Shown: one piece after another, positions 1 to 63,432 of the stretch
Layout: each line of letters begins with the position of its first letter
Position numbering within the stretch: the first letter of the stretch is position 1
Assembly: GCA_022414725.1 (NCBI GenBank)
Contig: CM039462.1
Span: 174,201,697 to 174,265,696, forward strand
DNA from: Microglena sp. YARC
Taxonomy: Eukaryota > Chlorophyta > Chlorophyceae > Chlamydomonadales > Chlamydomonadaceae
Reading direction: 5' to 3'
Length of the DNA stretch: 64,000 nt
Translations under genes and position numbers: made by a program
Notes under the pieces: generated by a model
Told to the model about the DNA's origin: nothing
Seen by the model: the letters and a program-made list of their open reading frames with translations, nothing else
Databases searched by the model: none

Positions 1-1899
1 TTGCCATTGAGCAAAAACTGAAGTAACCTAGAGCACCTGGTAGCCGACATCAACAGGTTTCTAGGAATACTGATACCTTTGGGCTTAGCCCAGTAAATGG
101 CGTGGGGAGCTGCCTAGAAGTCGCTTTTGATAGCCAAAAATAAATCAAAGGAGTTGAGCATCTTGCAGTGACAAGTGTGCAGCTGGGCGTACCTTTCGTC
201 CTTCATATCGTACTGCCCTCGCTTCATCATTCCCTTGTTGTACGCTATCCTCAGCATGTTAGCACGTGTCTCAGCAATCTGTAGCACACCAAACAACAAG
301 CCATTATATATGCGGGATTCATGGCCAAGAAAGCAGTTTTCATTTCAAAAACATGCTCTTTGCGAGGTTCTTGGTGTTTTATAAATAATTATGCATGGCA
401 GGACGTCAGCAGATGCAATTCAAGTCTCAGGGTGTTAATCATACAATTAATATGTAATTATACAATAATATAGAGAGACAGAGTCCCCAAAAATTAATGA
501 GTATTTGAGTGAGTGAAGGAGTGAATGAATGAACACGAAGTAAATTCATGTTCCATGTTCCCCCCACCCACCTTGTAGTCAGGCAGGTTGTCAACAGTGG
601 CTGGTGGTGGTACTGGACGCACACGGCCCCTGGGTGTTGTGTACGGCCATTGCATCTCAGGCAGGAGTTCAGAATCTAGTTGCTTGTCCAAAATGATACG
701 CTGGCGGCGCTCCAGTGACTACAATAGGAGAAGGATGGAGAGGATGCAATCTTTTGTCAACGAGATGAGCTGGCAGCAGGTTTGCAGAGGAAGGGAATGT
801 AAAAAATGAAGTATGTTTCAAATGAGTATGAGTACGAGTCAGGCACAACTACTATTCATTTGCCAAGTTTGTATCGGGCCTCCACGTTTTTGTTCACTTT
901 CCGAGCGTTGGGGTTCTAAGGGCACAATGCATGGAATAATGGTTATCAAGAAGCATATGCAACTGTTCTCTAGCTCTGACGGCATTAACCATCACACAAG
1001 TAAAATGTCTAGCCTATTTTTTGAAGTTCAAGCCAGGTTGAAGCCTAAACTGTATGTCACCCAGGGTAATGCCAAATGACAAGCAAATTCCACCATCCCC
1101 ATGTTAGGATGACCCCACTGATATATTTTGGGGCAACACATCACATGGCAGCTTCCATGCATTCTACAACTGCATTGGAATTCTTGTCTTGCCAGCTTTC
1201 CAACGCACTCGCTGGCTTCCAGGTCCACCCAAGGACAGGTAAGGGGAGCTCCCTAGAAGCTGCTACGCATAGACCAGAAAAAAAATAGTGGAAGTCTCAC
1301 CTTGTGCTGCCTCTCTGCCTGATCTGCAGGGGTGCCATCGTTAAGCTTGAAATCGTTAGGCACCGTAATGGGACGCCGGTTGTTTGCTCGGATGCGTGCT
1401 GCGTCCATCTCCCATTGTGCATGCATCGCGTTGTAGTCAGGTACTGCGCCTGGGGGACGGGTCTCGTACCTAGGGAAGACACGGAGGTATGTGGTGATGT
1501 ATGTGGTGGTGGTGGTGATGGTGATGGCAATGGACATGATTGTGCTTTGCAATGGGTTGTAGTCAGGTACTGCGCCTGGGGGCCGGGTCTCGTACGGGCA
1601 GACACGGAGGTATGTGGTGATATATGTGGTGATGGAGGTACGTGGTATGTGGAAGCGAAGTGCTGGATAGATATAAACATACGATCATATGATAAGGCTG
1701 ATCAATATATCAGCATTTGAGTATATGATATGACTGATCAACATATGCAGGATAGATATCAACATATTACTGATCAACATATGACTGGTTAAATATAAAC
1801 AAATTAAGTACATTAACTGATGCATAGGCGCACATCTGGTCCTACATAGGATTCATCACGCATGAGCCCACTACAACAGATGAATTGGGCAAAAACTTG

Positions 1900-1934
<35 letters not shown>

Positions 1935-4900
1935 TGCCCCTCACACACCCACAAACGTACAGACGCATGGTTTCACCGTTGGTTCCAGAAAGGATCCATC
2001 ATACATCAGCCCACTCTAACAGATGAAGTGACTCCCCACCCCGCCACACAATTTTTTTGACGCGTGGGCTCACCTCTGGTTCCAGATAGGATCCACGGCA
2101 TGCAGGCGGTTCTTGTAAGCACGGTCTGCTTCAGAAACACGCTCTGCGGTCTCAGCCTTAACCCTCTCCTTGGCATGCTGCCTGGCCATCTCAGCTCGAG
2201 AGCGTGCATCTCCTCGCTTCTCTTCCATTTGTATTTGCATCAGCTTGAACCTCTCCTCCCTCATGTGGAGTGGCACACCCTTGGCTTTGAAGGGGACCTG
2301 GGCAGTGGCAGTAATAGGTTGAAGAATGAAAATGAGGATGAGAATGGGAATGGGAATGGGGATGAGAATAGGAATGAGAATGGGAATGAAAATGAGGATG
2401 AGAATAGGAATGAGAATGGGAACGAAAATGAGGATGAGAATAGGAATGAGAATGGGAATGAGAATAGGAATGAGAATGTGAATGAAAATGAGCTAAGCTT
2501 GAATATCTCCTCCCACGTGTGGGGTGGCACACCCTTGGCTTTGATGGGGACCTAGGCAGCGGCAGTAATAGGTGGTAGAATAAAAATGGGGATGAGATAA
2601 GATTGAACCTCTCCTCCCTCATGTGCAGTGGTACACCCTTGTCCTTGAATAGGACCTAGGCTGCATCAATAATTGGTGGTAGAAAGAGAATCCTGGTGCC
2701 CTACTGGACTCCAAATGTGCAGCTTGATGGATTCAAGTGGGGAATGACAACGACAGGAGAGCGACAACAGCAATAATAAACGAGTACAATTTATTCTTAG
2801 CTAGTAAACCTAGACATCAGATGCAACCCAAGAGGGGTGGATAGCTAGGGCTAGGTTTACCAACTAAAAACTTGTCTTCACTGTTTTTTTACTTAATTCA
2901 GGCCCGATAAAGTTATAATGAGAAGAACGCGCCATTATCAGCTTTCAATGTCAAGTGTGGAGGTATTTACCTGGAATCTGTTGGGATCCTTTGCATCACG
3001 CATGTATGTCTCTTTAAGCGCTTGGCGCTCTGCCTCCCTCTGTTCAAAGCTGAAAGGCTGTTGGATCTGTCTGCGTGCACAAACGTAAACAAAAACATCA
3101 CATGGCAGTTGTACGAATGATTAGCTACGTGGGTATACTTGTGGCCAGGCAAGGTAGCTACAGATGATCCTGGTCAGCTCTGCCCCCCCTCCCCCCCCCA
3201 CCTACCTGCCCCCTTCCCACACCCGCCACCTCAACCCTTCCCACCTTCCCACCCACCACAATCATCACTAGCATGTACCCTTGGAGCTCTATTATGCATT
3301 GCTCTCGGTTGACCCCCCCCCCACCCTTCTCCCCCCTCCACAACCATGACCTGCACGTACCCATGGAGCTCCATAATGCGTTGCTCTCGGTTGACCTGTC
3401 GTTGGACTTCCCTCTGCAATGTCATAGCAGCATAGCGTGGCTGCATCACAGACTTGGGCAGCGGACTGGCATGGAACCTGAGGAGGAGGAAGAAGTGATG
3501 TCTCTGTGAATATAGATTTGTCGATATTATATAAATATATTAACCTACATTTATATGTACACATAAGGCCTACAAAGGCAAGCAGCCTTTACGGCTAGAG
3601 CCAAGCAATCGAGTTCAAATTCCATTAAAACCTTAACCTTAGATAGTTATATATCACATCGCATAGCGCACTGTTTGTATTATCCATTTAGCCTCTTTTC
3701 TGGTATATTACATTGTATGCTGTATATGTTATCCATGTAACCCTAAACCTTATATACCACGTTCTATGTATCAAGCATGTATGCCTAAACCTTATATACC
3801 TCAATGCATACATTATCCATGTAACCCTAAACTGTACACACCACATTGTAAATATGATCCATATTACCCTAAACATACCACATTGTACACTGCATTTGGA
3901 ATCCATGGACCCTAACCCGAATATACTACATTTACACCATATATACCATCCATTTAACCCAAAATCTAATCCATTTCCAAGTTCCATTGTTCAAATGGTA
4001 TCCTTACCTGAGCCTGTTAATGGCATCATACTCACGACACTACAGTCCTTGGGTTGGGTTGGCCTGAGTGCCCATCAACCTATGCTCTAACACTGTGTTT
4101 ATGCTGACACATCTTTGGCTTGGGTTGGGTTGGCCTGAGTGCCCATCAACCCATGCAATGAGCTTACCTGAGCCTGTTAATGGCCTCATCCTCACGTCGC
4201 TTCAATGCCAAGTCTTGTTCAAGTTTGACCTACAAAGCCACAGTGTTTTGTATTTCAGGTTTATGCAGGCCAAGTTGAAGAGCTACTTGGGCTACTCAAG
4301 ATTGATTTCAGGATTGTTGTGCAGCCATTGCATCGTGGGCCACAAAGCGTGGAGCCTGGGGGGTTATTCCCGATTAATTCAGCTAGAACCATGTGTTGCC
4401 ATGCAGCGACGGAATGGCGATACGTTGCCGGAAAAAATAAACTGCACAGGCAGGATAAACAAAACATATTTACTACAGTTCCATGCAAAGCATGGTAAGC
4501 AAAGGTCAGCAGGAGGCAAAGATGGGACAAACTGCAATGCAGATGAGGTAGCGCTTGGTGTGAGAAGTAGGGAACAATGGCTGCAGGTCCAGCTAGGGCC
4601 AACTATGTACATGTGGATGTGAGGAGTAGGGAACAATGGCTGCAGGTCCAGCTAGGGCCAACTATGTACATGTGGATGTGAGGAGTAGGGAACAATGGCT
4701 GCAGGTCCAGCTAGGGCCAACTATGTACATGTGGATGTGAGGAGTAGGGAACAATGGCTGCAGGTCCAGCTAGGGCCAACTGTGTACATGTGGATGTGAG
4801 GAGTAGGGAACAATGGCTGCAGGTCCAGCTAGGGCCAACTATGTACATGTGGATGTGAGGAGTAGGGAACAATGGCTGCAGGTCCAGCTAGGGCCAACTA

Positions 4901-5125
4901 TGTACATGTGGATGTGAGGAGTAGGGAACAATGGCTGCAGGTCCAGCTAAGGCCAACTATGTACATGTGGGTATGGATGCGAGGCTTTTCTTATCGGCCT
5001 TCCTTAGCAGCTCCCAGAGCCAAAACGAAAAGTTGTGCATGAAAGTGGTTGGGGTGAAGGCGGCAAGGGTTTTAAAGTTTATGATGCATGAAACATGCAC
5101 CATATTGCTACATATTTCACTCACT

Positions 5126-5173
<48 letters not shown>

Positions 5174-5701
5174 TTTTTTCTCTTCCATAGACGGATTTAA
5201 ATATTTGTATTGTTTTGTATATTTTCTTACACATTCACACACCTAGCTTGCTTGTGTGTTTGAGCAGACTTGCCTTATGAATGCTCTTCGGCTTGTTCTT
5301 CTCCCTCTCCTCAAAAGTGAAGGGGGCTAGTGGGACAGTGGGCTTAAACATTGACCGCCTGATGTTGGCTGGAGGGTCGCGAAGGATGGAGTGCAATCCT
5401 TCAGCACGCAGCTTGCCGGTCATTGTGTGGAGGAACGGATCCCCATTAGCATACATCTCCTCTTCCTCACTCAGATACCCCCTGCGGAAGTTAAATAAGA
5501 AGTATACAATTATTATCCACCACCACTGCCACTAACAACAAGGCAGCAACAATTTGTTATTCCTTCCCTTCAAATGCCAGCAGCAAACAGTGTTTTTTAT
5601 TTCAGATTGCTGTACGCCAGATTGAGTAGCTACTTGGGCTACTCAAGCCTGATTTCAGGATTGTTGCGTGGCCATCGCATGACCGAGCACAAAGTGCGGA
5701 G

Positions 5702-5739
<38 letters not shown>

Positions 5740-8700
5740 TGGGGGTCATGCATTGCCATACAACAGTGGATTGGCGACGTAGTGGCGATCAGTCGTAAAA
5801 AATAAAACTGCCCTTCACATGAAACACAGCACACATGGGTCATCAGGCTACTCTCTTTTGTAAATATCATCTCATAACATCATATAGTCAATATCATTTG
5901 TGGAGAAAGGGATCTTTATCAACAAACAGCTCCTCTCCCTCACCCAGATATCCCCTGTGGCACAGTCAAATTAAGAGTAAACAAGTATGTACTTATGATC
6001 GACCACCACCAACAACATCACAGTATTGCTTTCATTCACCTTCACTAACATTCATATCCTCTTCCTCATGAGATGCTATGCGTACTGCAGGGCTGTCCAT
6101 ATCCATCCTGACCTGTAACGCAAATCTACCATCCTATCATACCCCCGAACCCACAAACAAAGGTGGACAATGATGTACGTGTACTGCTCCACCAGGTATT
6201 GGTGTCTTAGGCCAGGACTGTACTGCTCCACTATATTGGTGTCCTGGGCCAGGACTGCTAGTACTTCGTGACTGTCTGTCCATCTCCATCCTGCACTGTG
6301 ATGCAACTCTTACATCCTGCCATGCCCCCAACACCCCCATGCATAGCCGAACAAACCTGTTCAGACGCGCAGTGTTATACTGATCCACCAGGTATTGGTG
6401 TCTTGGGCCAGGGCTGCTATGAGTGCTCCTGGGCTCTCCCTGTCCATAGCCCCCCTCATCTCCTTCTTGCTGCTCATTGAAGTGGTAACCATCATTGGGG
6501 CCAAGCCGATTGCGGTAGAAGTCCATCCAGGAGTCTTGCTCCTGCCACGTTTCCTAAAATCCGGTGATACAAAAAGTCACTTGTATTAGTTTATTTGTTC
6601 TCGGCCAAGTAGAATTTGACCATATGCACCATGCAAGCATAATAATAGCGTGCATGACTTGACGTATAAGTTGCTCCTCCCATGTCTCCCCCCATGATAT
6701 TTGGTGGCACAGACAGAGTTGATTGTTTCAGTTCAGTTATATTCTGAATGTGATGGTATATAAGGATACCACCTGGACTTGTCTTCAAACTGTCTACACC
6801 TGCGTGATTGCATTCTGTACGCAGGAGTGTGATGTAGTAGTGTTTATAATGCCCGAAGGTATTCGGCCTGGAGATGGTGAGCAGCTTAAAGGCTGATAAA
6901 CTATGCAATCAATCCAAATTATATATCAGGACATTGTAGTTTCGTACAGTTTTGGGAGTTTTGGGGCATCAGCATCGTATGTTCAAATCTTGTCAGAGTA
7001 ATTCTACCAAATCCAGTTTATAACAGCTTTTAATGTCTCTTATTTGAGATTTTCAAAAGTGGGGCCACCTCTTGACTCAGTTGAGGTGCACATGTTGATT
7101 CAAGTAGTGTGGTGGGATGATATGTGTATGTATGTATGTTACAGTCCAGAGGTAGGCCAAATAGGATAAAGGGACTTGCTCAACCATGACTGGAAGGGCT
7201 GAAAAGAAAAGGAATTGATTAAGTGAATCCCGAGCAATTGTTTTACCCGCAAGGGCCCTGATTTTGTGCTACAGTGATCACTTAAGTCCAGTAGTGTGGC
7301 GGGATGATGCAACAATTCACCCGCATCTATCAATTAAATGCAAGCCATCAACAGAAATGGTGGTTGGCCCCAGTGCAAGTGAACAGGCTGCCCCCCTCAA
7401 CTTCACACCTCGTCATAAGGCATACCGGAGGCATACAATTAATTGATTTATTCATTTCACATTCACAACATTTTCATCTGTTATTTACATATTTATATAT
7501 TCAACTAAGTCACCTGCAGAAGCTGGGCCATCTCCTTGCCCTCCTCTTCTTGCCGCTCAAATTCCATCCGCTGTGCCTTTGTGAGAGAATCCATTGCATC
7601 CATGGCATTTCTCTCACGCTCCTATGAGGTGGAATTTTTGAATTTGAATTCGAATTGTTACATGATTCTTCAGCCAAACCTGGGATGTTCACCGCCGGCC
7701 AATTCCTATGCAGTGGGTACAGCAAATGAGAAGGATTAAATACCAAAGGATAAAATGGTGGTCCAACGATGTACCGCATCATTACAACCATGTACTGCTC
7801 CATGTGCAGCAACCAATGGACAACCATGTACCGCATCATTCCAACCATGTACTGCTCCATGTGCAGCAACCAATGAACAACCATGTACTGCATCATTACA
7901 ACCATGTACTGCTCTATGTGCAGCAACCAATGGACAACCATGTACTGCATAAATTACAACCATGTACTGCTTCATGTGCAGCAACCAATGGACAACCATG
8001 TACTGCACCATTACAATCATGTACTGCACCATGTGCAGCAACCAATGAACAACCATGCACTACATCATTACAACCATGTACTGCAACCAATGGACAACCA
8101 TGAACTGCATCATTACAACCATGTACTGCTCCACGTGCAGCAACCAATGGACAACCATGTACCGCATCATTAAGAGAGCAACATACACAGTCAAAAGATA
8201 GACACAAAAGAGCACCAACATAAGAAGTCACAACATACATACACAACATACGCAGTCACACACTCACAACGCACACACAAACTCTCATAATGCACACACA
8301 CATGTTTAAGGCAAGTGCAATAAATGGGAAGTCACCTGGTCACTTTCATATCCCTCCTCCAAAGCTCTCCGCTCCATGTCCATATCAACCTAGTAAGGGT
8401 AAGGCAAGGACAGATGGATAGGAAGTGGATATTTGTTTAGCATTCATTGCTCCATATAATTGTCTGTAGCTACATTTTGTGATGGTTTGCCACTGAAACA
8501 GTGACTCCCATTGTGTGGCAGTTTGCTACACCTAATGTGTCTTCCCTTTTTCACTCTCTGCCCTGCTTCATACTGCACACTCCACTCTACCACTCCTGCA
8601 GTGAGCAGTCCCACCTATCATTGTTTGCCCTCCTTCCCTTCCACTTTGGTGAATGGTGTTACACAGCTAAGTTGTGTTCTAGCCGCACAGTAAATATTGA

Positions 8701-9134
8701 CACCTTAATTCAGAATCGGGAAACAATCAGACAGCCAGCTAGAAAACAACATTACAGTAATCCACCTCGCGAGAGCCTGCCCTTGCATCACACAACATCT
8801 GCTATTTTGGGATGGAGTTCACTCCTCTAATGTCCCACTCCCACTCCGACTTTCTCTCTCTCTTCTGCTGTACTCCACCAACAATTATTGCCCCCCACTA
8901 CCACCAACACCCTCCCCTTTCTCTCCCTCATCACACATCACATTTATGGACATATGCAGATTCTCAATATTGTTCTGGTCCTCATGTAGTGAGTCATTGT
9001 ATGATATTAATCTGGTCCTCATGTAGTGACTCATTGTACGATATTGTATACCCCATTTTTTAACAATTTGAAGGACACTTGGGTGATTTGGGGGTAAACA
9101 CATATGTACATATGCAAGGTTGTCATTGTACGAT

Positions 9135-9212
<78 letters not shown>

Positions 9213-11177
9213 ATGATAATCGATGATTTAATATGATATATCATACATTATATTGTACAGTATATCAATATATTGTGTAATATATCGTTTGATACTGTAT
9301 ATTACATTGCCTGATCATCTTGGGGACCAGTACGATATTGATGTCCCTAGACATATGACTGCAACGAGAAGAACTCTCACCTGTCTGTTATACTCGGCAA
9401 ACTTATCAGGAGCAAAAGCTCCTGCCGCCATCCTAAACTCATCTTCATTGATGGATGGCCCCCCTGTTTGTGCAGGAGGTGCGCCAGGCGGTGATCCTGG
9501 TTGGGCCGTGCCAGGGGCCATACGATCCACGGCAGGGATACTTCTTGATAGTCGACCTGCCAGCGTATCTATGACAAAAGATGATGGTGCATTAACATGA
9601 GAATTGGACACATTTTTAATTATTTATCAAATTGCTGTATTTAATGATTTCTTTCATTTGTGTAGCTATGTGGAGTAAACTGTCCTTTTACGTCTCTATT
9701 TTGTGGGGCTTGTATTTTATTTAATATATGTTTGTGCATTGTGAATGGATGGCAGGGAACAGTGGACTTGTATGATTGTCCCATGTGAACCGGGAGTGGG
9801 CCAGGCGGTGATCCTGGTTGGGCTGTGCCAGGGGGGGCCATACAATCCATGGAAGGACTACTAGTCGAGAAGCAAGTGAAACATATATGTGATAGAAGAT
9901 GGTGTATTGATATGAGCATTGGAGCGCTGGATACCTCACCTACACCTGACACAAGTCAAAGCTTATCAACACTAGACACCTCACCTACACAAGACACAAG
10001 GTAGTGTGCCTACACCATCTGCAAGGCAATGCACCGATAAAACTCACCTACTCTCCCACCCTCAACCTGCCGCCCGGCAGTATCCACAAACACGCCTCCA
10101 TTCCTCTCATCCATGTACACCCTGTATCCACTGTCATCATCAGACCTTTTGGTGTATCCACCGCCTCCAGAGCTACCGGAAGCATTGTGGGGAGCGTATT
10201 GATCGCGCTGTGGGCTGCCGGATGTGTATGGAGGCAGAGAGTGGGGGTGTGGGGGGCTGCTACCATGTGGGGCGTTACCAGGCTGTGGGTACATGTACAC
10301 ATCAGCTCTATAATCACCACCACGACCATACTCTGCCAACGTCTAGATTATATGTTCAACTTCAACTTTGTTCATGCATGATGTTTGGCGAGCAGCCAAA
10401 TTGCTGACTAGAGCCTTGAAACCAAGTTCAAGTTCCTGCAAAGCCTAAAATACCTTCAATTCCATTGGTATTACATCTCAACTAAATTAAGGGAGGGAGC
10501 AACATATGGGCTGCAATCCACAATAAGTGTTGCTCTCATGAAGAATGCCCTCTTCCCTGTCACCCAAGCCTTTAGAAGGAGGAACTTCTTGTATTGATCA
10601 AATACCTCATCAGATAGCTGTTGTTCTTGTAAGATACTGCAGCATACATTATTCAGCTTGCATCACATCCTCACTATATCAGCCACCATCCAACAACAGC
10701 AACAACACAATCCTTAACCAACAATGAAAACGGCGAGCAGCCAAATTGCTGGCTGGAGCCATGTAACTTCCTCCCTAAATCGGCCACCATCCCTCAACAT
10801 CTAAGTGAACAGCATTGAACGTGTTCAGGGACTTCTTTAACGTTGCACATACAGAACCAAAACATAGTTTGTGGAGAACAGGGGATGCATTCTCCCCGAT
10901 ACCCAAATCATGCTTGGAGGGCTTAGAGGGCTCGCACATTCTGGCGCTTTGCAGCCCTCAACGTTGCCTTGTATCTCCTAGCTGCCTCTTTTTCAGTCTG
11001 GGTGGCTACCTCAAAGATATTGGGAGGTAGCCCGTCTATCCTTGCCTGCTTGCTGGCCCTCCTTGCTTGCTGCAAACATTGATAAGCGTGTTTGCATGCG
11101 GGGTCTAGTTTTGCACCCTTGGCCCTGTTGAACTTTCTTTGCCGTTGGGTTGGGTTTGTAGAGAACAGGTGATGCAT
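1..11177 (-). CDS. FAM161: FAM161-family ciliary/centriolar protein gene (14 exons traced, truncated at left edge)
   Basis: Exons read on the minus strand: 11177-10938 (tentative first exon), 10342-10048, 9568-9381, 8389-8336, 7621-7514, 6553-6381, 5481-5274, 4229-4168, 3477-3361, 3070-2971, 2297-2074, 1469-1301, 718-572, 278-193, then off the window. All joins keep phase; about 720 residues so far. Central exons carry the FAM161 (UPF0564) pattern: a 'PFTFEEREKNKPKSIHK' block, then 'RFHASPLPKSVMQPRY', then 'QIQQPFSFEQREAERQ', then 'VPFKAKGVP', that is alternating F-K/H-A-x-P-x-P and PFxFxxRE blocks embedded in coiled coil. Known FAM161 proteins bind microtubules and sit in centrioles and ciliary bases. 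One intron has a GC donor (after 5274). Several introns carry copies of exon ends. The family call rests on remembered motifs. Confidence 0.8.
193..718 (-). CDS. FAM161: FAM161-like gene, two 3'-most visible exons
   Basis: Exon 718-572 follows a 3' splice site TTGTAG and ends at AAG|GTGGGT. It encodes 49 residues starting SLERRQRIILDKQ and ending in a proline-rich stretch and NLPDYK. Exon 278-193 follows CTACAG and ends at GAAAG|GTACGC. It encodes a basic helical stretch starting IAETRANMLRIAYNKG. The phases are 0 to 0 and then 0 to 2, so the reading frame must continue into an exon to the left of the window. The intervening intron contains nothing coding. Confidence 0.7.
1301..2297 (-). CDS. 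FAM161: FAM161-like gene, exons with the third FxAKxVP block and long helix
   Basis: Exon 2297-2074 starts after CCCAG and opens with VPFKAKGVPLHMREER. It continues as a charged helix rich in K, R, E and A (for example MARQHAKERVKAETAERV) and ends NQ plus two bases of an Arg codon before GTGAGC. Exon 1469-1301 starts after CCTAG, completes that Arg codon and reads YETRPPGAVPDY, then a helical segment ending QAERQHK before GTGAGA. Copies of the start of exon 2297 lie upstream near 2500-2552 and 2595-2662. A copy of the start of exon 1469 lies near 1545-1602. Confidence 0.75.
1545..1602 (-). repeat. Upstream copy of FAM161 exon 1469 start
   Basis: Minus strand CGTACGAGACCCGGCCCCCA and then GGCGCAGTACCTGACTACAA duplicates the first 40 or so bases of exon 1469 about 130 bp upstream. 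The microsatellite between them is GGTGGTGATGGTGATG. Confidence 0.8.
1899..1934. repeat. Poly(C) tract
   Basis: An uninterrupted run of about 36 C in a FAM161 intron. Similar long G/C homopolymers: 5705-5738 (G), 22999-23018 (C), 23790-23812 (G), 33523-33538 (G), 33750-33765 (C), 43580-43602 (C), 44238-44262 (C), 54979-54994 (C), 63950-63963 (C). Confidence 0.95.
2330..2495. repeat. Purine-rich minisatellite (GAATGAGAATGGGAAT type)
   Basis: About 165 bp of 6-bp-based repeats (AATGAG, AATGGG, AATAGG), all purine plus T on the plus strand. It lies between two copies of a FAM161 exon start. Confidence 0.9.
2500..2662 (-). repeat. Two upstream copies of FAM161 exon 2297 start with acceptor
   Basis: The start of exon 2297 (AG|GTCCCCTTCAAAGCCAAGGG) recurs as CTAGGTCCCCATCAAAGCCA around 2552-2500 and as CTAGGTCCTATTCAAGGACA around 2662-2600, with the following GTGTGCCACYCCACAYGWGG and GAGGAGAKRTTCAA. 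The copies sit on both sides of the GAATGAGAATGGG minisatellite. Their frames degrade after about 20 codons. Confidence 0.8.
2692..2765. mobile_element. Interspersed repeat family 6 (GGACTCCAAATGTGCAG)
   Basis: CCTGGTGCCCTACTGGACTC, CAAATGTGCAGCTTGATGGA and TTCAAGTGGGGAATG. Copies: 18625-18690 and 36225-36290 (with ATGATGGTGATGGTTA upstream). Confidence 0.55.
2971..5481 (-). CDS. FAM161: FAM161-like gene, core domain exons
   Basis: Four exons: 5481-5274, 4229-4168, 3477-3361, 3070-2971. The first opens GYLSEEEEMYANGDPFLH and ends with a PFTFEEREKN block and SIHK, followed by a GC donor (AAG|GCAAGT). The second is a short helix, VKLEQDLALKRREDEAINRL. The third begins RFHASPLPKSVMQPRY and runs into coiled coil ending IMELHG. 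The fourth reads QIQQPFSFEQREAERQ and ends DPNRFQ. This alternation of basic FxAxPxP and PFSFxxRE blocks is the main basis for the FAM161 assignment. Phases are 0, 2, 2, 0 and all junctions are consistent. Confidence 0.8.
3279..3313 (-). repeat. Copy of FAM161 exon 3477-3361 end with donor
   Basis: Minus strand GTCAACCGAGAGCAATGCAT and AGAGCTCCAAGG|GTACAT repeats the exon end GTCAACCGAGAGCAACGCAT and GAGCTCCATGG|GTACGT, about 80 bp downstream in the intron. The intron sequence after the donor is also repeated. Confidence 0.85.
4008..4040 (-). repeat. Copy of FAM161 exon 4229-4168 end with donor
   Basis: Minus strand CGTGAGTATGATGCCATTAA then CAGGCTCAG|GTAAGG repeats the exon end CGTGAGGATGAGGCCATTAA, CAGGCTCAG|GTAAGC, 160 bp downstream. 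The nearby TTGGGTTGGGTTGGCCTGAG segment is duplicated at 4050-4083 and 4120-4150 with the same spacing, so the unit is larger than the exon part. Confidence 0.85.
4245..4450 (+). mobile_element. SINE-like family 3 (CTACTTGGGCTACTCAAG)
   Basis: TTATGCAGGCCAAGTTGAAG, AGCTACTTGGGCTACTCAAG, GGATTGTTGTGCAGCCATTG and GCAGCGACGGAATGGCGATA, ending GAAAAAATAAA. Other copies: 5590-5812 (with an internal G33 run) and 58562-58765; partial ones near 17300-17400 and 60905-61050. About 200 bp. Confidence 0.7.
4555..4975. repeat. 60-bp tandem repeat, seven copies
   Basis: Unit: GGAGTAGGGAACAATGGCTG, CAGGTCCAGCTAGGGCCAAC, TATGTACATGTGGATGTGAG. The seven copies are almost identical, with one substitution (TATGTA to TGTGTA) in copy four and drift in the last. 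Because the unit is a multiple of three, it stays open in one plus-strand frame, but the coding appearance is a by-product. Confidence 0.95.
5130..5180. repeat. (AT)n then poly(T)
   Basis: AT dinucleotide run of about 26 bases followed by about 24 T, in a FAM161 intron. Confidence 0.9.
5895..5962 (-). repeat. Upstream copy of FAM161 exon 5481 start with acceptor
   Basis: Minus strand CCACAG|GGGATATCTGGGTGAG and following bases encode GYLGEGEELFVDKDPFLH, against GYLSEEEEMYANGDPFLH in the real exon 480 bp downstream. It has a usable acceptor in the same phase but runs to a stop soon after, so it is probably a dead copy. Confidence 0.8.
6381..8389 (-). CDS. FAM161: FAM161-like gene, acidic and coiled-coil exons
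   Basis: Exon 8389-8336 encodes VDMDMERRALEEGYESDQ. Exon 7621-7514 encodes a 36-residue coiled coil starting ERERNAMDAMDSLTK and ending EMAQLLQ. Exon 6553-6381 encodes ETWQEQDSWMDFYRNRLG and a Gly/Gln/Ser-rich region ending HQYLVDQ, using a donor GTATAA whose phase fits the exon at 5481. Introns between them hold a 57-bp minisatellite (7770-8170), SINE-like copies and partial copies of the 6381 exon end near 6180-6260. Confidence 0.7.
7122..7291 (-). mobile_element. SINE-like family 1, best-defined full copy
   Basis: Contains TACAGTCCAGAGGTAGGCCA, the GGGCCCTGATTTTGTGCTAC end and a TGTATGTATG tract. It is flanked by AGTAGTGTGGTGGGATGAT (7103-7121) and AGTAGTGTGGCGGGATGAT (7292-7310), an 18/19 match consistent with a target-site duplication. 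Other copies or fragments lie near 15285, 18000, 18175, 18965, 22757, 25010, 26267, 27630, 29835, 32115, 51000, 57150 and 63545. Confidence 0.75.
7359..7460 (+). mobile_element. SINE-like family 2 (GCAAGCAAACGGGCTGG; TTTA tail)
   Basis: GGTTGGCCCCAGTGCAAGTG, ACAGGCTGCCCCCTCAACTT and CTCGTCATAAGGCATAC, then TTTATTCATTT. Similar copies: 19798-19880, 28108-28195, 46855-46935 and, reversed, 59628-59700. They end in a TATTTATTTA-like tail, which suggests retroposition. About 90-100 bp. Confidence 0.7.
7770..8170. repeat. 57-bp tandem repeat, about seven copies
   Basis: Unit: ACCATGTACTGCTCCATGTG, CAGCAACCAATGGACAACCA, TGTACTGCATCATTACA. Individual copies vary at a few positions and one lacks about 20 bp. 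It lies in the FAM161 intron between exons 8336 and 7621. It reads open in several frames on both strands because of its composition. Confidence 0.95.
9139..9208. repeat. (AT)n microsatellite
   Basis: A run of about 70 bp of AT dinucleotides, next to GTACGATATTGTATA-type sequence. Confidence 0.95.
9381..11177 (-). CDS. FAM161: FAM161-like gene, tentative 5' exons
   Basis: Exon 9568-9381 reads DTLAGRLSRSIPAVDRM, then a Pro/Gly-rich stretch, ending FAEYNRQ before GTGAGA. Exon 10342-10048 is Gly/Ser/Pro/Tyr-rich (starts TLAEYGRGGDYRADVYM) and has a phase-1 donor that fits the next exon. A further upstream segment from an ATG at 11177 to 10938 encodes 80 residues of basic helix (starts MHHLFSTNPTQRQRKF) and ends at a weak GTGCGA donor in matching phase. 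The first exon and the true start are uncertain; coding-like sequence also lies at 11.38-11.65 kb. Confidence 0.5.
9783..9870 (-). repeat. Upstream copy of FAM161 exon 9568 start
   Basis: Minus strand reads like PSMDCMAPPGTAQPGSPPGP, against RSIPAVDRMAPGTAQPGSPP in the real exon 270-300 bp downstream. The copy has an extra run of G and no retained donor. Confidence 0.75.
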
Positions 11178-11214
11178 TCTCCCCGACACCCGATTCAAGC
11201 GTTGACCTGGACAT

Positions 11215-11350
11215 GTCTTTCAACTGTCTAGTCCTAAGTGTTTGCTTTCTGCACTCAAGAGTGTGGTGCAGTAGCGTTAGTACTTTTTGTGTTTACTCTG
11301 TCCTCAGACAGTGAGCAGCCTGGAGGCTGATAGGCCATGCAATCAAACCA
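11215..11350 (+). mobile_element. Interspersed repeat family 5 (CTCARGAGTGTGG / GTGAGCAGCCTG)
   Basis: TTTCAACTGTCTAGTCCTAA, CTGCACTCAAGAGTGTGGTG, and AGTGAGCAGCCTGGAGGCTG, ending GCCATGCAATCAAA. Copies: 6775-6915, 14710-14830, 49395-49475 (5' part), 28805-28920 (reverse). Short forms of the GAGCAGCC...GGCTGGAGCCATGTAA part occur near 10390, 10730, 50585, 55355 and 55630. Confidence 0.6.
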
Positions 11351-29527: not shown

Positions 29528-29528
29528 G

Positions 29529-51680: not shown

Positions 51681-52134
51681 GGATCCTCTAGCGCCCAGAG
51701 GAGGGAGCGCCAGAGCAAGCTTGCATTTCACACGTCCATAGTTGTATTTTTAGCTGTCGGGGCGTGGTAAGTTGATGAGACGGCAAGTTGGGGCGTTTCT
51801 AGCGCTAATGCTTTCTGGAAGGGTGGTGGGCGCAGACGGCCACCCCCAATCCTAAGTTTCGGCAACAGTGGGAATGCACTCCTACATGCTTTCAAAGGCA
51901 CGTTCATGACGCTCTTAAGCATGCTTTTGCGTTATCGGTTCGATTAGGCTGGTAAGAAGCCTGCATGCACGGGGAGGATGTTCAGATGCGACCGAGCTTG
52001 TCGGAGTCGAGGTTATCATGTGTGGGAGCAAAACGTACCAAACGCACGAATATGACGCTATTAACCAAATGGTTGCGGTAGCGGTGCGATTCGGCTAGCA
52101 AATAGACATTCATTCAAGGGCAGCATACTCAGGT

Positions 52135-56250: not shown

Positions 56251-56751
56251 ATGTTGGCTTCCTCCAGTTGCTTGGCAGTACGGCGGCACCCTATCCAACC
56301 AGGTTATGAAACTGGAGGCGCTGCACCTATCTTTCGCACAAATTATCGCACCTCCTCTCTAATGCACATCAACTTGAAAACACTTAAGCCGCGTTTGCAA
56401 TTGCCGCGCGGGGCGATTCCGCCCGTGCTTTCGGTCCGGCCATGCGGCAGGGCGCAAACAGTCCTCAGACCTGTCTGTAGGGTGTCGATTGAGGACGCCC
56501 CTGTAGCGACTATTGCTGTCGAGCATGAGGATATCGCTTCAGCTGCTGTCGAGCATGAGGGTATCGCTACTGCTGCTGTCGAGCATGAGGATATCGATGT
56601 AGCTACTGTCGAGCATGAGGATATCTCTGCTGCTGTTGAGCAGGATGGCATCGCTGTTGCTGCCGCTGAGCAGGATTCTGTCGCTGCCACTGTGGCCTCT
56701 GAAATTATATTGAAGACGTTTGAGGACGTTGGGGTGGACCGGCTGTTTCTC
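56251..56751 (+). CDS. DEAD-box helicase exon 1: transit-like N-terminus and VEHED repeat
   Basis: From the ATG at 56251 the exon reads MLASSSCLAVRRHPIQPGY, poor in acidic residues for the first 80 or so, with many Arg, Ser and Pro, as in chloroplast transit peptides. About residues 90-140 hold five near-repeats of VEHEDIA (30- to 33-bp DNA repeat) and two of VEQDGIA. It ends LKTFEDVGVDRLFL before GTAAGT, which supplies the upstream Phe-Gly part of the DEAD-box Q motif. The start codon is the first ATG of an open frame; targeting is inferred. Confidence 0.75.
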
Positions 56752-59700
56752 GTAAGTGGGCATGAGTCGCCGTCCCTGGGCGGGGTGGTGGGGGAGGGGG
56801 GCACAATTGCTTCCTCGCCTAAGACGAATGTGTAGAAGAAGGTTAAGTGGTTCCATGCAGCAGAAAACTTTTGCCATGCTGTCCTGATTACACTCTCCTC
56901 TTAAAAGCTATCCCTCAATTCAGGTGGATTGTGCACATGTTATGCATGGGCAGGGTGGTGGTGAAGGAGGAGGGTTGGCTTGCTTCCATGTCTTGGATTT
57001 TTTTTTGCCATGCTATCCTGATCACGCTCATCATGTTGAAGCTTTCTCTCAATTGATGTGGGGTATGCTTATATTATGCAAGTTATGCAGGCCTAGGTAT
57101 AGGAGATACTTTGTTTGTTGTTACTAAAGCTATACTTTACATAGTATAGTATAGCTTATATACAGTCCAGGGGTACCCAACTAGGCTGAAGGGACTTAAA
57201 GGGACCAACAATTATAACAGGGATGGCCGGGGACGGCTACAAAAACTGATGAACTGAACCCCAAACAATATTTTTACCGACGGGGGGCCTGAGTTTTTGC
57301 TACAGTGATGATTTTATCATACAATAGGATGAAATATAATGAACATAGGAAGTACATGCAAAGTGCAGTTCCTCTTGTTATCAAGTGACCTGTATGCATT
57401 GAAAGGAGTGCTATCCCCGCCAGATGTAATGTATCAATCCATGCCATGTGTCAATCGTGGATATGCCATGCAAGTCAACGGTGGTCTATGTTCTAGTTAG
57501 AATGCAGGATGTATGTAGTTGCTGGCCGGCATGCTTCTTTGCAATATAGCATGTATTTTCCTGCATGCCTGCGTCCATGCATATCAGCACATGCCAAGTG
57601 TGCAAGTTGTCAGGGGGTCATTACATGGAGGGGTGCGCTGTTCTGTGCGCCAGCTTCTATGCATATTTCCGTGAAATTGCCATACAAAATGTCACCCTTC
57701 TGTATTTTCATGCATTTCAAATGTCACCATGAGTCACACAAAACAATATTTGTAAACATGAAAAGTGTCGTCAAAAATTGCGCTGGTCGCACGCAGTATG
57801 ATGACAAATATTGGAGTGGAGTTCCCCTCCCATATTCAAGAAGCAACCATCCCACGCGTGATTAGCAGGGAGAAGGTCGCCCTTTAAAGACATTTAACTA
57901 TAATATGTACGCAGAGGATTAGCAGCCTGCAGGCTGATACCAGGGCTTTTTCCCTGCTACTTATAGCGATAGCTACCTGGGACACCATTTTGGCCGAATC
58001 CGCTACCCTGGCACCAGAAAGCTGAACCCCCTGAGGCGATCCTTATGGCTGCCCTACCCAAATCACTACCTGGACCTCACCCGTGGAGAATATCAAATCC
58101 CTGAAAGCTACCAGAAGACTCCCTTTCCGAAACGAAAAGAAAAACTGGCTGATACGCCATCACTAACCATCAGCAGCCATACGCACCACTCACTCACGCA
58201 CTCACGCACTCATACAAACACACACAGGAGGGCCTCAAAAAGATGGGAGCAGAGTTCCCCTCCCCCATTCAAGAGGCAGCCATCCCGCACGTCATGAGCG
58301 GACAGAATGTCGCCCTGCAGAGCTACACAGGCTCTGGAAAGGTGAGACTGACAGCCTGGATTCATATGTTGGGATGTTAGTATTGTACTGGTCCCTAAGA
58401 TTATCAGGTGGTATATCATACAATATTGTACAATATATAATTCGATATATCTATACAATATTGTACTTGACAACCCTACATATGTGTATGTTACACAGGT
58501 GTCACCACATAGGGGCAAGGTTGGAAGGATGGGGGCAAGCTTGGAAGGATGGGGATCAGTTTTTTTATTTCAGATTTCTGTAGGGCAGGTTGTGTACCTA
58601 CTCGGGCTACTCAAGCCTGATTTCAGGATTGTAGCGTAGCGCATGGCATAGTACGAAGCGCGGAGCCTGGGGGGGGGTAAAGGGGCATCGCCAAACCAAA
58701 GTGTCGCCATGCAATGACAGAATGGCGACGCAGTGGCGACGCGTCGTCGAAAACAAAACTGGTTGGAGATGTTTGCACTCTGCTCTGCTTCAACACCTTA
58801 TCTTGACGTGCTTCATAGCTGCTGTCTATCCTAAATGTGGTGGGACCGGCACATTGTATGATGTTGACCAAAGGCGAATATGATATCATGTGCTGTCATA
58901 CAGCTTGCATCACATGATATTGTGTATAAATGGTAACCTTAGCCTAGTTAGACTGCCGGCATCATATGATATCATATTGCCGTGCCCTACAAATGTGAAC
59001 ATCGATTCGCTCTATTAGATGTGAAATCCTGGTATTGTCAGGTTTCGTCAAACTGTGTATAGCATGTCTATATTATTGGGTTTATTTACTCTTACTTCAC
59101 TTCAGGAAGATAAAAAAACAATTACGCTTCACCACCTCATCTTGAGGTGCTTCATGTGCTTCCCCGCAGAATTTCTTTTAATTTAGACTTTTTAGGTGAT
59201 ATTACAAACCCATTTAAAACAATATTGTTAAGACACTTGGAAGTGCGGCAATAGCCGTAAAAAGGTTGGAGATGTTGGCACCGAACAAACTCTCAACGAA
59301 AAATCTAAGTTAAACGATTGCGAACTTGAATTTATGTTGTCATTCTACGCACTTAAAAAGAATTCCAGATTTGTGTCAATTCAGCATACTCAAAACTATT
59401 CAACTTCAAATTCTGATTCAAAACTAAAGTAATCCCTCATCTGCCCCATCCCCTTATCTCAACGTTCCTCGTGTGCTTCCCTGCAGACCCTTGCTTTCCT
59501 CCTGCCCGTTATTACAATGGCCCTACGACGCGCCGAGAAGCTTTACAGTGAGAAGAAGGTTGTACCACTGCAGGTATGTGGCACTGTAATGCTGTCGTTA
59601 GGGTGTGATAAATACATAAGCAGTAGGCCTTATTACAGGGCGTGAGGTTGAGGGGGCCAGCCCGTTTGCTTGCACTGGGACCAACCACCAATATATGTGA

Positions 59701-62700
59701 CAGTACTGCTGTCGTTGTACGTATCTACACGTTTGCTTGTCTTGCTTTGTTTCCTTTCCTGTTTTGCACAAGTATTGTGTTTCATCGAATCATCGTATTA
59801 CGTGCTTTAGCTGAGTATAGTATTTTCCTCCATACTATATTGTGTTCTCTTATGCGTGCGCACGATACAAATACAAATGCACTATTTCAACCTACAGGCT
59901 GTCATCGTCGCACCAGGCCAAGAGCTAGCCATGCAGATAACGCGAGTGGCCCACGCCATCTTCCCTGACGAAGGGCGCAAGATGGTGCAGCAGTGTATTG
60001 GAGGCGCAAACCCTCATCGTCAGATCGAGGCCTTGCGTGCGAACAAACCCATTTTGGTGGTTGGCACGCCTGGGCGTCTGGCTGACTTTGTGAGGAATGG
60101 CAAGCTGAAGCTGCACAAGTGCCCAGTGCTTGTCATGGATGAGGTGGGTGTATGAGGGGAAGGGGGACGGGGATATAGCAGGGGTGGTGGGTGAAGGAGG
60201 GTTGTCACAGAGGGGGGGAGTTCACTTTGTTAGGACCTTCCAGCTGAAGCTGCACAAGTGCCAAGTGCTAGTGATGGATGAGGTGGGTGCATACTAGGGG
60301 TATAGCGTGGGTGGTGTGGGGGTGGGAGGCTGGGGGAGGGGGGGTAAGCCAGGAGTATCGTGTGGGTTGTGGGTGAAGGAGGGTTATCACAAAGGGGGGG
60401 GAGACTTTGGCAGTTATGGAAACTTGAAACTGTCTACGTGCCCAGTGCTGATGATGTATGAGGTGGGTGTATGCCTGGGGAGGGGGTATAGCACGGGTAG
60501 TGGGTTGTGTGGGTGGTGGTGGTGGTGGGGGTAAGCCAGGGGTATTGTGTGGGTGGTGAGTGAAGGAGGGTTACCACAGAGGGGGAGGGATTAAACTTTG
60601 TTAGGAATGGAAAGCTGAAGCTGTTGAAGTGCCCAGTGCGAGCCCTGGATGAGGTGGGTGTATATCTGGGGAAGGGGTATAGTATGGGTTGTGGGGGTGG
60701 TTTGTGCATGTGTGGTGGTGGTGTGTGTGTGTGCGGTGGTGGTGGTGTGTGGGGGGGGGGGAGCCAGGGGTATTGCGTGGGTGGTGGGTGAAAAAGGGTT
60801 ACCACACAGGGGGAAGTGAACTTTGTTAGGACTGGACAGCTGAAGCTGTAGAAGGGCCCAGTGCTAGTGATGGATGAGGTGGATGCACTGTTTTTTGTGT
60901 GTGTTACGCGTCGCAAATTGATTCCCCCCAAAACCGGCAGAGGGCGAAGCGCAGAGCCTGGGGGATTCGGGGGGGCATTTCTGACAAGTTTTGCCAGACC
61001 CATGCGTCGCCATGCAGCAAAAGAAATGCGACACGTCGTTGGAAAAACATTGGGTTGGTGTATGCCAGGGGTATAGCGTGCCTTAACATTATATCCCCTT
61101 CCTTCTCCCAGGCAGACCTGCTCCTTGCGCCCAACTTTGCCGAGGACACGGCCCACATCATCATTTCCCCCCTTCTTTTCCCCCATGTCATACTCAGCCC
61201 CACTAAACATAGTACCCCTTCCTTCTCTCAGGCAGACCAGCTCCTTGCGCCCAACTTTGCCGAGGACATGGCCCACATCACAGACCACTGTGGCAAGCGC
61301 TTGGACTTCCCCCGCCAAACCGTGTTGGTCAGTGCGACTCTCACTCAGAGTGTCCTGGCCAAGTCAGAGAAATGGTGCCCCTCCCCATTGTACGTCACGG
61401 CTGGCGGAGCCGCCCCAACTGTTATGCCCCCCACCCCAGGGGGCTTCTCTCTCTCCCCCGCAAGTACCAGCGCAGGTGTGTGTATGTATGTATGTGTGCG
61501 TATGTATGTCGCAGTCCAGGGGTCGGCCAAAGGGACTTGCCCAACCGTGACAAGAAGGGCTAAAAAGAAAATGCATTGATGAACTGAACCCCAAGCAATC
61601 GTTTTACCGACGGGGGCCCTGCGTTCGTGCTATAGTGATAATCTAATTCTATGATTGTATGCTGGTAAACACTCATACACCACAATCCAAATTTAATTTC
61701 ACAATTGTAACCAGCGCAGGTGCTCCCAGTGCCGCACCAGCGCCAGGGTGGGGGTGGGGAGTCCAGGGATGGGATGCCCCAGGAAGCAAGTTGGGCCCTA
61801 AGACACAAGGAGCGGCTGGAGGAGTGGAGGCAGCGGATGGGCTAGTGCCGACCATGCCACCACAGTTGAAGCACGTGTACATTGTGGCGGAGCATCGACA
61901 TAAGGTGGACTGCTTGAGGAAGAGCATCAACGCGCTTGACTCGCAACGCTCGCTCGTGTTCATGAACTTCCAACAGAGGCTGAAGGATACTATCTTCAAG
62001 CTGAGGGCCAAGAAGATGCCGGTGAGTGTTGCGTGGTTCATCGTGATGGTGGTGGTGATGATGGTTGTTGTTATTGTCATTGTATGAGAGGATTCCCCCC
62101 AACAAGGTGCTTGTGTTTATAAACTTCCAACAGCGGCTGAAGGATACTATCTTCAAGCTGAGGCCCCAGAAGATGCCGGTGAGGGTTGCGTGGTTCATGA
62201 TGGTGATGGTGATGGTGAGGGTTGCGTGGTTGATGGTTTGTTATTGTATGAGAGGATTCCCCGCAAGGAGGTGTTTTTGTGTATGTTTGGTGTGCTTGTG
62301 CTTAAAAACTTCCAACAGAGGCTGAAGGATACTATCTTATCTAAGCTGGGGGCCAAAAAGATGCTGATGAGGGCTCTGATGTTGATGAGTATGATGGTTG
62401 TTGTTATTTATTTTTATATTGTTATTGTACGAGAGGATTTCCCCCCCAAGGAGGTGCTAGTGTTTGTGAACTTCCAACAGAGGCTAAAGGACACTGTCTT
62501 TAAGCCGAGGGCCAAGAAGATGCGGACCGGTTATTCGTTTTAATGAAGAGTTGTTTTTGTTGTAATAAATCGTTTTTTTATGAATCGTCTTGATGTAATA
62601 AATGGTTTTCTTGTTTTACTGAGGAGTTGTTTGTAATGATGATTTTTCATGATGAGCCTAATGAAGATGTTTGTATTTGTAGACCACCCCCAACACTTGA

Positions 62701-63181
62701 ACCCTCACATTCAGCACTACTCGCCTGCCAGCAGCCTCAAGTTCACCAACACCGCTCCTTTTGTCAGATGGCTTCCCTGCATGGCGAGATATAGTCCCCA
62801 AATCGTTTCAGACCACCATCACCGCTCCCCAATGTGGTTCAGACCACCACCACCACCACCACCACCACCGCCCCCTCCTATTGTCAGGTAGCGTCCCTGC
62901 ATGGCGAGATGAGCAAGATGGCTCGTTCCAGCATGCTCAATGACTTCCGAAAGGGGCGAGTGCGAGCCATGGTGTGCAGCGACGTGTTAGCGCGTGGCAT
63001 GGACATCCAAGACTGTGATGCTGTGTTCCATCTAGAGATGCCAAGCAGCGCCGGTCACTATGCCCACAGAGCAGGGCGAACAGGGCGCATGGGAGCCCAG
63101 GGAATGGTGATCTCCATCGTTGCGAGGGAAGAGGTGTTTGTGGTGGACAAGATGGCAAGGGCTCTGGGTGTGCCCATCTTG
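56251..63181 (+). CDS. DEAD-box RNA helicase, probably plastid-targeted (3' end not found)
   Basis: Exons: 56251-56751, 58228-58341, 59487-59573, 59898-60143, 61232-61475, 61720-62021, 62888-63181; all joins keep phase. About 596 residues traced. All DEAD-box motifs are present: Q motif (GAEFPSPIQEAAIP), I (SYTGSGKT), Ia-like (APGQELAMQ), Ib (VVGTPGRLADFV), II (MDE|AD, split by an intron), III (SATLT), IV (SLVFMNF), V (DVLARGMDIQ), VI (HRAGRTGR). The N-terminus is basic and Ser/Arg/Leu-rich, then contains a VEHEDI repeat. In layout it resembles plant organellar DEAD-box proteins such as RH58, but orthology is not established. The last traced exon ends at a splice donor, so a 3' exon is expected beyond 63.4 kb or outside the window. 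Confidence 0.88.
57150..57310 (-). mobile_element. SINE-like family 1 copy in DEAD-box intron 1
   Basis: TACAGTCCAGGGGTACCCAA, GAACTGAACCCCAAACAATA, TTTTTACCGACGGGG and TTTTTGCTACAGTGATGA match the family over about 160 bp. Confidence 0.75.
57811..57884 (+). repeat. Diverged upstream copy of DEAD-box exon 2
   Basis: The sequence reads GVEFPSHIQEATIPRVIS-like and matches codons 7 to about 28 of exon 2 (GAEFPSPIQEAAIPHVMS) about 410 bp upstream. It lacks the 3' end and donor of the exon, so it is a partial copy of the exon's 5' part. Confidence 0.8.
58228..60143 (+). CDS. DEAD-box helicase exons 2-4: Q motif to start of motif II
   Basis: Exon 58228-58341 encodes EGLKKMGAEFPSPIQEAAIP and VALQSYTGSGK (Walker A split from the following T). 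Exon 59487-59573 encodes TLAFLLPVITMALRRAEKLY. Exon 59898-60143 encodes AVIVAPGQELAMQITRVAHA, the glycine doublet CIGGANPHRQIEAL, VVGTPGRLADFV and ends VLVMDE before GTGGGT. A diverged copy of exon 2 is at 57811-57884. Four copies of the end of exon 4, with donors, follow in intron 4. Confidence 0.92.
58840..58989. mobile_element. Palindromic ATATCATATGAT MITE family, copy 4 (inverted)
   Basis: Starts GTGGGACCGGCACATTGTAT with GTTGACCAAAGGCGAATATG inside and ends ATTGCCGTGCCCTA. It lies in DEAD-box intron 2. Confidence 0.75.
60241..60878 (+). repeat. Tandem array of exon-4 3' end plus splice donor (four extra copies)
   Basis: The last 40 or so bases of exon 4 (coding KLKLHKCPVLVMDE) and its donor GAG|GTGGGTG recur at 60241-60282, 60421-60462, 60603-60653 and about 60835-60878, at 139, 180, 191 and 225 bp spacing from one to the next. 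The units carry intron sequence too (GT-rich TATAGCRTGGGTGGTGGGTG and GAGGGTTRYCACARAGGGGG). The first three copies keep GTGGGT; the last has GTGGAT. Most encode a changed motif II or no longer read open upstream. Confidence 0.9.
61112..61170 (+). repeat. Upstream partial copy of DEAD-box exon 5 start with acceptor
   Basis: The tract CCTTCTCCCAG|GCAGACCTGC, followed by CTCCTTGCGCCCAACTTTGC, duplicates the acceptor and first 40-45 bases of exon 5 (61232) 120 bp upstream. It stops before the rest of the exon, so using this acceptor would not give the full domain. It could compete with the true acceptor. Confidence 0.85.
61232..63181 (+). CDS. DEAD-box helicase exons 5-7: motif II end to motif VI and C-terminal lobe
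   Basis: Exon 61232-61475 starts with the AD of DEAD, then QLLAPNFAEDMAHITDHCGK and TVLVSATLTQSVLAKSEKW. Exon 61720-62021 has an Ala/Gly/Pro linker, then LKHVYIVAEHRHKVDCLRKS and SLVFMNFQQRLKDTIFKL. Exon 62888-63181 reads VASLHGEMSKMARSSMLNDF, DVLARGMDIQDCDAVFHLEM, HYAHRAGRTGR and EEVFVVDKMARALGVPIL. The intron 61476-61719 coincides with a SINE-like insertion. Introns 4, 6 and 7 contain tandem copies of exon ends. Confidence 0.92.
61476..61719 (-). mobile_element. SINE-like element that is itself a complete intron (family 1)
   Basis: The intron between DEAD-box exons 5 and 6 is one copy of a repeat whose core is TCCAGGGGTCGGCCAAAGGG. In the antisense direction it would have a body starting ATCACTATAGCACGAACGCA and a (TACA)n-type tail. 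The 13-bp sequence ACCAGCGCAGGTG occurs at both ends (61466-61478 and 61710-61722). Both splice junctions fall inside this duplication as CAG|GTG. Confidence 0.85.
62106..62525 (+). repeat. Tandem array of exon-6 3' end (three extra copies)
   Basis: The end of exon 6 (FQQRLKDTIFKLRAKKMP) recurs at 62106-62178, about 62295-62366 and about 62455-62525, at 157, 188 and 159 bp spacing. The first extra copy keeps a donor (CCG|GTGAGG). The second has ATGAGG and the third ACCGGT where the donor should be, so they look dead. Each unit is followed by a TTGTTATTGT-type stretch and a GAGAGGATTYCCCC motif. Confidence 0.9.
62763..62791 (+). repeat. Upstream copy of DEAD-box exon 7 start with acceptor
   Basis: The sequence GTCAG|ATGGCTTCCCTGCATG and following GCGAGATA repeats GTCAG|GTAGCGTCCCTGCATG of exon 7 about 123 bp upstream. 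Between the two are CAGACCACCACCACC-type repeats. Confidence 0.8.
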
Positions 63182-63250
63182 GTAGGTGGGGGCTGTGAGT
63201 GGTGGGCTGGGTGGGTGGGTGGAGTGGGGGGCATGTGGAGGGAGGGGTGT

Positions 63251-63432
63251 TGATTGCAAGCGAAGAGGTGTTTGGAATGGCGAGAGCTCTGGGTGTGTCC
63301 ATCTTGGTGGTGGTGGTGGTGGTGGGCTGTAAGTATTGGGCTGGGGGGGGGCTGTGAGTGTTGGGAGTGCGTAAAGCGTGGGGGTTGCAAGGAGTGGAAA
63401 AGATGGCACAAGTTCTTGGTGTGCCCATCTTG
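63251..63432 (+). repeat. Tandem array of exon-7 3' end plus donor (two extra copies)
   Basis: The end of exon 7 (EEVFVVDKMARALGVPIL) recurs at 63251-63306 and about 63385-63432, at 125 and 126 bp spacing. The second extra copy keeps a GTACGT donor; the first is followed by a GTGGTG run. Neither has an obvious acceptor in front. Confidence 0.85.

Follow-up and report, generated by a model that had tools for sequence, protein, structure and literature searches.

Local direct duplication filtered by selection probably accounts for splice-junction copies in introns of Microglena sp. YARC

INTRODUCTION

Tandem duplication close to splice sites has been described in several systems. The report on the potato RdRp gene (PMC4974935) describes a tandem duplication that runs across an intron-exon boundary, so that the splice signals are doubled, together with a further 83-bp duplication inside the first intron. 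For Drosophila, PMC2891723 describes intron gain by tandem duplication of proto-splice sites, and PMC8355091 describes small tandem duplications that arise when DNA breaks are filled in by synthesis, involving CST and Pol alpha-primase, in human and mouse cells. Here we analyse a stretch of 64,000 nucleotides from the green alga Microglena sp. YARC (the window; G000:C1:174201697-174265696, in an assembly of 568,105,699 bases and 2390 contigs), in which exon ends with their splice sites recur in the neighbouring introns of three genes, namely gene 1, a Strawberry-notch gene and a DEAD-box helicase gene.

The alga resembles the potato gene in having junction-crossing tandem duplications that double splice signals, but the potato duplication gave rise to a new intron whose use has RNA-Seq support, whereas the alga shows dozens of events that leave the inferred coding chain undisturbed. 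Drosophila intron gain likewise draws on local tandem duplication near splice sites as its raw material, with an exonic duplicated segment becoming the intron; in the alga, pre-existing introns receive the copies. With break fill-in in human and mouse cells the alga shares frequent small tandem duplications as a general mutation class, whereas many recent copies in the alga are gapped, not adjacent. A comparable density of junction duplicates was not found in a non-exhaustive search of open-licence titles and abstract openings on tandem duplication, splice sites, introns and algae. In the following, we argue that indiscriminate local duplication filtered by purifying selection is very probably the best explanation of the copies.

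RESULTS

Junction copies in the window and at kinesin loci

A preliminary description of the window listed seventeen exon ends with local copies. In gene models checked for intron phase, a direct local duplication found by self-BLAST and a junction scan spans 15 of these 17 junctions (Table 1). At 58228 a local copy exists, but the matching part (58239-58316) begins 11 bases within the exon and leaves the junction unspanned; at 48821 a 28-bp tandem duplication crosses the site, but the junction is known only from the automatic model P0121 and lies outside the phased models. An unbiased scan with a cut-off of at least 36 bits found 17 of the 99 window junctions duplicated, adding 27499 and a weak case at 2074 (41 bits) to the first list, and all 17 had their copies on the intron side in direct orientation, as had been described. 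The members of these pairs are ~69 to 91% identical and thus are not assembly duplicates. Assembly duplication was also rejected on the wider finding that copies differ from their originals by roughly 5-30% (10th-90th percentile identity 73-94%).

The same geometry was seen outside the window. Across the whole genome, a search with a kinesin profile gave 128 matches, and in the 114 used, 8 exons had partial copies nearby, which lay downstream in 5/5 pairs sharing the exon end and upstream in 4/4 sharing the exon start, plus one near-complete copy. Ten kinesin loci were fetched and nine used, with 28 of the 32 submitted exons mapped. At these nine loci 35 of 56 junctions were spanned, with all copies intron-side, only the mapped exons being known, so that some 'intron' may be exon and some exon ends are approximate. 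Five loci had been selected for visible copies (20 of 30 junctions spanned) and four had not (15 of 26).

Local direct duplications are also dense in sequence chosen without regard to genes. In eighteen random 10-kb stretches of contig C1, six of which contain masked letters, duplications with a spacing of 50-900 bp covered on average 44% of bases (median 38%, range 6-94%), while first-order randomised sequence gave 0% coverage at 45 bits. Over random stretches, kinesin loci and the window, 223 of 273 smallest spacings fell within 50-200 bp with no sharp peak; spacings below 50 bp are absent from the self-BLAST output, though many arrays of this kind in the window appear in the Tandem Repeats Finder output.

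Exons, not junctions, depart from chance placement

The preliminary description held that duplication centres on splice junctions. Chance expectation was obtained by a circular-shift test at 45 bits (the cut-off also used for coverage), in which the exon map was slid round each of 12 loci holding 78 exons, i.e. the three window genes and the nine kinesin loci, which represent one protein family outside the window. Exon ends were spanned in 51 of 156 cases, against 51.7 ± 4.9 expected from random placement, the 156 ends including the start of the first helicase exon, which is not a splice junction. At the kinesin loci unselected for copies, the 15 spanned exon ends compare with 14.7 expected. 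Moreover, in a masked-exon control, which removes the longer visibility of conserved exon halves by masking the exons and comparing junction flanks with the flanks of masked pseudo-exons, the mean per-locus difference in coverage was -0.015 ± 0.046. In the sampled genes, junctions are no more prone to duplication than chance placement predicts, and the proposed link to junctions is not supported.

It is the exons that depart from chance. No copy contained a whole exon, where 11.4 ± 2.5 were expected by circular shift over the 12 loci, and only 4 copies lay inside an exon, where 18.9 ± 3.2 were expected; at the unselected kinesin loci whole-exon copies again numbered 0 against 3.0 expected (P = 0.016). 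These deficits support the earlier suggestion that selection keeps those copies that leave the transcript intact. Coverage by local duplications at the kinesin loci was flat across the exon end, with 0.63 at exon positions -10..0 and 0.63-0.71 through the intron, and was lower, 0.37, deep in the exon (-100..-61); in the window genes it was 0.16 at exon positions -10..0 against 0.22-0.30 at 151-700 bp into introns.

Fate of the copied splice sites

At 49 junctions, 138 copies cover the splice site, copies within one array not being mutually independent. GT was retained in 63 of 69 donor copies and AG in 63 of 69 acceptor copies, and by score 36 of 69 copied donors and 41 of 68 copied acceptors equal or exceed the real site. 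GT and AG at first looked strongly preserved (0.957 and 0.949 per base, compared with ~0.84-0.86 in the exon bases of donors and 0.85-0.92 in the flanks of acceptors), an impression that shrank after controls for alignment-end bias and dinucleotide composition. In a strict test, requiring at least 30 aligned bases on each side and using the same dinucleotide elsewhere in the copies as control, GT was kept in 35/41 donor copies against 92/113 for other GTs, and AG in 40/45 acceptor copies against 186/221 for other AGs. These counts suggest that copied splice sites decay roughly like the adjoining sequence.

Use of a copy would mostly be damaging. Copy offsets occur in all three frames, and the product would stay open and in frame with only 6 of the 121 copies that could be tested. 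Differences between exon and copy fall at all codon positions (47/307, 36/307 and 55/308, with a slight lean to the third), rough sums, since an apparent frameshift puts the data for 23096 and 21514 out of phase, and a coding function of the copies is not supported by this comparison. At 46 sampled junctions, one or more copies still have their GT or AG. There is no clear overall loss of junction-crossing copies, though most of them would be harmful if used; a deficit is seen in the Strawberry-notch gene. Decoy sites whose use would do harm thus seem largely tolerated, and because of this tolerance we infer that splicing would have to discriminate by something beyond the sequence of the site itself.

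Gene models and other features of the window

Splice sites were picked for agreement of intron phase along each chain. Due to the over-prediction of small exons by the codon-usage exon finder, only phase-consistent exons were retained, with protein similarity helping the choice. The top protein matches of all three genes are mostly from green algae. The models of gene 1 and the helicase gene read open throughout, and in the Strawberry-notch chain the phases agree, apart from an apparent frameshift of one base within the conserved exon 26611-26842, beyond which straight read-through meets stops. The frameshift falls at a run of five C (26707-26711) and is perhaps a sequencing consensus error. 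In gene 1, exon 5274-5481 has an apparent GC donor (AAG/GCAAGT, with GC at 5272-5273), which the reading frame requires and P0241 shares; the donor of the 6381 exon is uncertain, as P0241 reads to 6356 and the duplication spans both candidate places. An Rfam scan of the window gave no match at gathering scores.

Three public automatic models, P0001, P0121 and P0241, have at least 99% identity to window segments over 78%, 47% and 40% of their length, respectively, hence the same or a nearly identical genome is present in the public protein set. Intron copies are coded as exon in two of these three models (P0001 and P0121, not P0241): together they translate intron copies or minisatellite at 62134-62178, 62481-62540 and 32837-33226. 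P0001 is also without the last helicase exon (62888-63181), and P0121 is without part of the Strawberry-notch exon 26611-26842 at the frameshift. By eye, the Strawberry-notch exon-end copy at 32246-32324 keeps some residues of green-algal orthologs that the main exon has lost, and it is a candidate for a real alternative exon.

The helicase intron 61476-61719 carries an identical 13-base sequence (ACCAGCGCAG/GTG) at each splice junction and holds a dispersed element of ~176 bp, which occurs on both strands in several other stretches. This intron was possibly made by insertion of the element, with the target duplication supplying both splice sites; between the end of the element and the acceptor lie ~68 bases, which is a poor fit with a simple insertion origin. 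Between the genes, a retrotransposon-like region at 41900-46220 encodes, on the plus strand, domains of reverse transcriptase and RNase H; TTGG arrays and tandem arrays of the 13-bp ACTATAATGTGTC lie close by. Outside the window, the kinesin search also returned fourteen dispersed matches of ~190-240 positions to a similar part of the motor, in long open frames (e.g. C505:20564-21244), perhaps an amplified intronless kinesin-like sequence.

Table 1. Positions of junction copies, comparison clusters and genes in the window
Feature	Span	Strand	Offset, identity and remarks
Acceptor 1469 + exon start (1414-1516), copy 1539-1639	1414..1639	minus	verified; offset 125, 87.5% identity
Donor 2074, weak copy (2059-2095 vs 1962-1998)	1962..2095	minus	83.8%, 41 bits
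Acceptor 2297 + exon start, three copies (2242-2343, 2496-2597, 2597-2691)	2239..2691	minus	verified; minisatellite between first two
Donor 3361 + exon end, copied	3240..3396	minus	verified; offset 80, 83%
Donor 4168, copy 4003-4044	4003..4204	minus	verified; offset 160; also intron-only 38-bp copy 4048/4119
Acceptor 5481, copy 5894-6009	5420..6009	minus	verified; offset 474; dispersed repeat (from 5587) in between
Donor 6381 (or about 6357), copies 6093-6220 and 6221-6260	6093..6419	minus	verified
Acceptor 9568, copy 9796-9923	9479..9923	minus	verified; offset 317, 74%; copy without AG
Donor 21514, copied	21293..21543	minus	verified; offset 190, 79%
Donor 23096, copied	22902..23179	minus	verified; offset 185, 80%
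Donor 27499, copies ~93 and 191 bp away	27273..27535	minus	added by scan
Donor 32390, copied	32246..32457	minus	verified; offset 133, 85%; copy 32257-32322 coding in P0121
28-bp tandem duplication at 48821	48777..48832	minus	junction only in unverified 5' part of P0121 (stretch 48826-48927)
Exon start after acceptor 58228	57806..58316	plus	offset 433, 79%; match begins 11 bases inside exon
Donor 60143 + exon end, four more copies	60085..60885	plus	verified; offsets 139, 319, 510, 735
Acceptor 61232 + exon start, copied	61082..61280	plus	verified; offset 121, 91%
Donor 62021 + exon end, more copies	61952..62526	plus	verified; offsets 157, 342, 504; P0001 reads copies as coding
Acceptor 62888, copied	62744..62910	plus	verified; offset 116, 82%
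Donor 63181, copied twice	63120..63461	plus	verified; offsets 134 and 251; 68% and 87%
Intron-only local duplications of same kind, two clusters	15922..17091		strand not assigned; comparison set
Gene 1	193-10332	minus	13 exons, rebuilt; relatives carry Pfam PF10595
Strawberry-notch gene	13982-37715	minus	30 exons after one split exon merged
DEAD-box helicase gene	56362-63181	plus	7 exons, rebuilt

DISCUSSION

In the explanation that we favour, the nuclear genome would undergo, or would recently have undergone, frequent local direct duplication of short segments, with some copies adjacent and many gapped, and these would land regardless of gene structure. Where an exon-intron unit is doubled, one copy would stay joined to the exon body and the other would be stranded in the intron; since only one copy stays on the exon body, the stranded copy would lie downstream of a donor or upstream of an acceptor. 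The intron-side rule is thus a matter of geometry, plus the loss of exon-disrupting units, as units within an exon or holding a whole exon would alter the protein and would be removed by selection. The earlier premise, under which random tandem duplication would not be expected to centre on junctions, is misleading, because exon-intron units must leave their extra copy on the intron side. The stranded copies would then decay roughly neutrally, usually with a recognisable GT or AG, and splicing would ignore them.

The duplications themselves may come from a break-repair or replication template-switch process. Among the recent copies (identity of at least 92%), many are short and have a gap between them, a pattern as compatible with templated repair or template switching as with a tandem duplication and a later deletion; the near-complete two-copy young duplications, of which only three were found, are too few to judge breakpoint microhomology. 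By analogy with human and mouse cells, break-end fill-in is a candidate only for the source in the alga.

Several observations weigh against this simple account. When loci are weighted by their number of junctions, the masked test yields 0.229 against 0.297, a deficit that comes mainly from the Strawberry-notch gene, where junction copies look depleted (4/60 against 7.7 expected; masked test 0.021 against 0.180), and the filter on junction copies may not be neutral everywhere. In the window genes, coverage in the last 60 exon bases (0.16-0.19) exceeds that in the first 100 intron bases (0.10-0.15), an excess that visibility bias would explain; exon halves drift more slowly, so that junction copies stay visible longer, and this could hide mild selection against them. 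A crude hand count, with detection bias unallowed for, favoured junctions, at ~17 junction against ~10 intron-only events (unit of at least 60 bp). Moreover, at looser cut-offs and with a mixed-dinucleotide control, more sites were kept than expected, both in donors (43/49 against 36.2, P = 0.010) and, less clearly, in acceptors (55/61 against 50.0, P = 0.052); counted per junction at 30 bases, the values were 0.867 against 0.775 for donors and 0.825 against 0.834 for acceptors.

This small excess at loose cut-offs would agree with an earlier proposal, namely that selection maintains the copied sites because they serve as decoys or as alternative splice sites. The proposal could also draw on the many copies that keep GT or AG and score no worse than the real site, and on the copy at 32257-32322, an in-frame 66-bp stretch with its own AG that is coding in P0121 and that, in a by-eye comparison, keeps some residues of green-algal orthologs. 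Nevertheless, same-dinucleotide controls leave little excess, and the scatter of offsets over all three frames, with so few open in-frame products, speaks against it; on balance we consider maintenance by selection improbable.

Duplication directed at splice junctions, by way of R-loops, splicing intermediates or reverse splicing, had been suggested by the list of junction cases in the preliminary description, and it would agree with copies that hold exon, splice site and intron in register and with the slightly higher coverage of exon ends than of the adjoining 100 intron bases in the window genes. Against this, the frequency at exon ends equals that of random placement in the shift test, at the unselected loci and in the masked control; junctions carrying copies comprise 25 donors and 24 acceptors; random stretches of the genome are heavily duplicated too; and junction-spanning copies retain intron sequence, implying no spliced intermediate. 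We therefore regard targeting as very unlikely. Less likely still is that introns arose by tandem duplication of an exon segment bearing AGGT, with the copies as footprints of new introns: the process is known and uses the same raw material (PMC2891723, PMC4974935), and a 13-bp direct repeat with AG/GT lies on either side of intron 61476-61719, but the model needs an exon-end copy abutting the far splice site, whereas none of the 19 window copies for which the intron length is known lies within 30 bp of it (nearest 208 bp), and the copies carry intron sequence, sometimes several per intron.

Indiscriminate duplication with selective filtering replaces the claim of splice-linked duplication by a measured and simpler account. 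A tentative reading, toward which we lean less than against, is that position and not site sequence decides splicing: 46 of ~156 exon ends face near-identical decoys, mostly ruinous if used, and junction copies seem to accumulate about as freely as intron-only copies. On the same tentative reading, the choice would be alike at both ends, the first donor copy and the last acceptor copy winning, the latter despite decoys transcribed earlier. Such a position-based choice at donors and acceptors would fit exon definition and would argue against a simple first-come choice.

In this genome automatic gene prediction goes wrong. Local duplication is very dense, and many real splice sites compete with their own close copies. 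The many natural pairs of near-identical sites offer a testing ground for models of splice-site choice, and if position-based choice is true, the genome of this alga would amount to a natural large-scale splice-site competition experiment.

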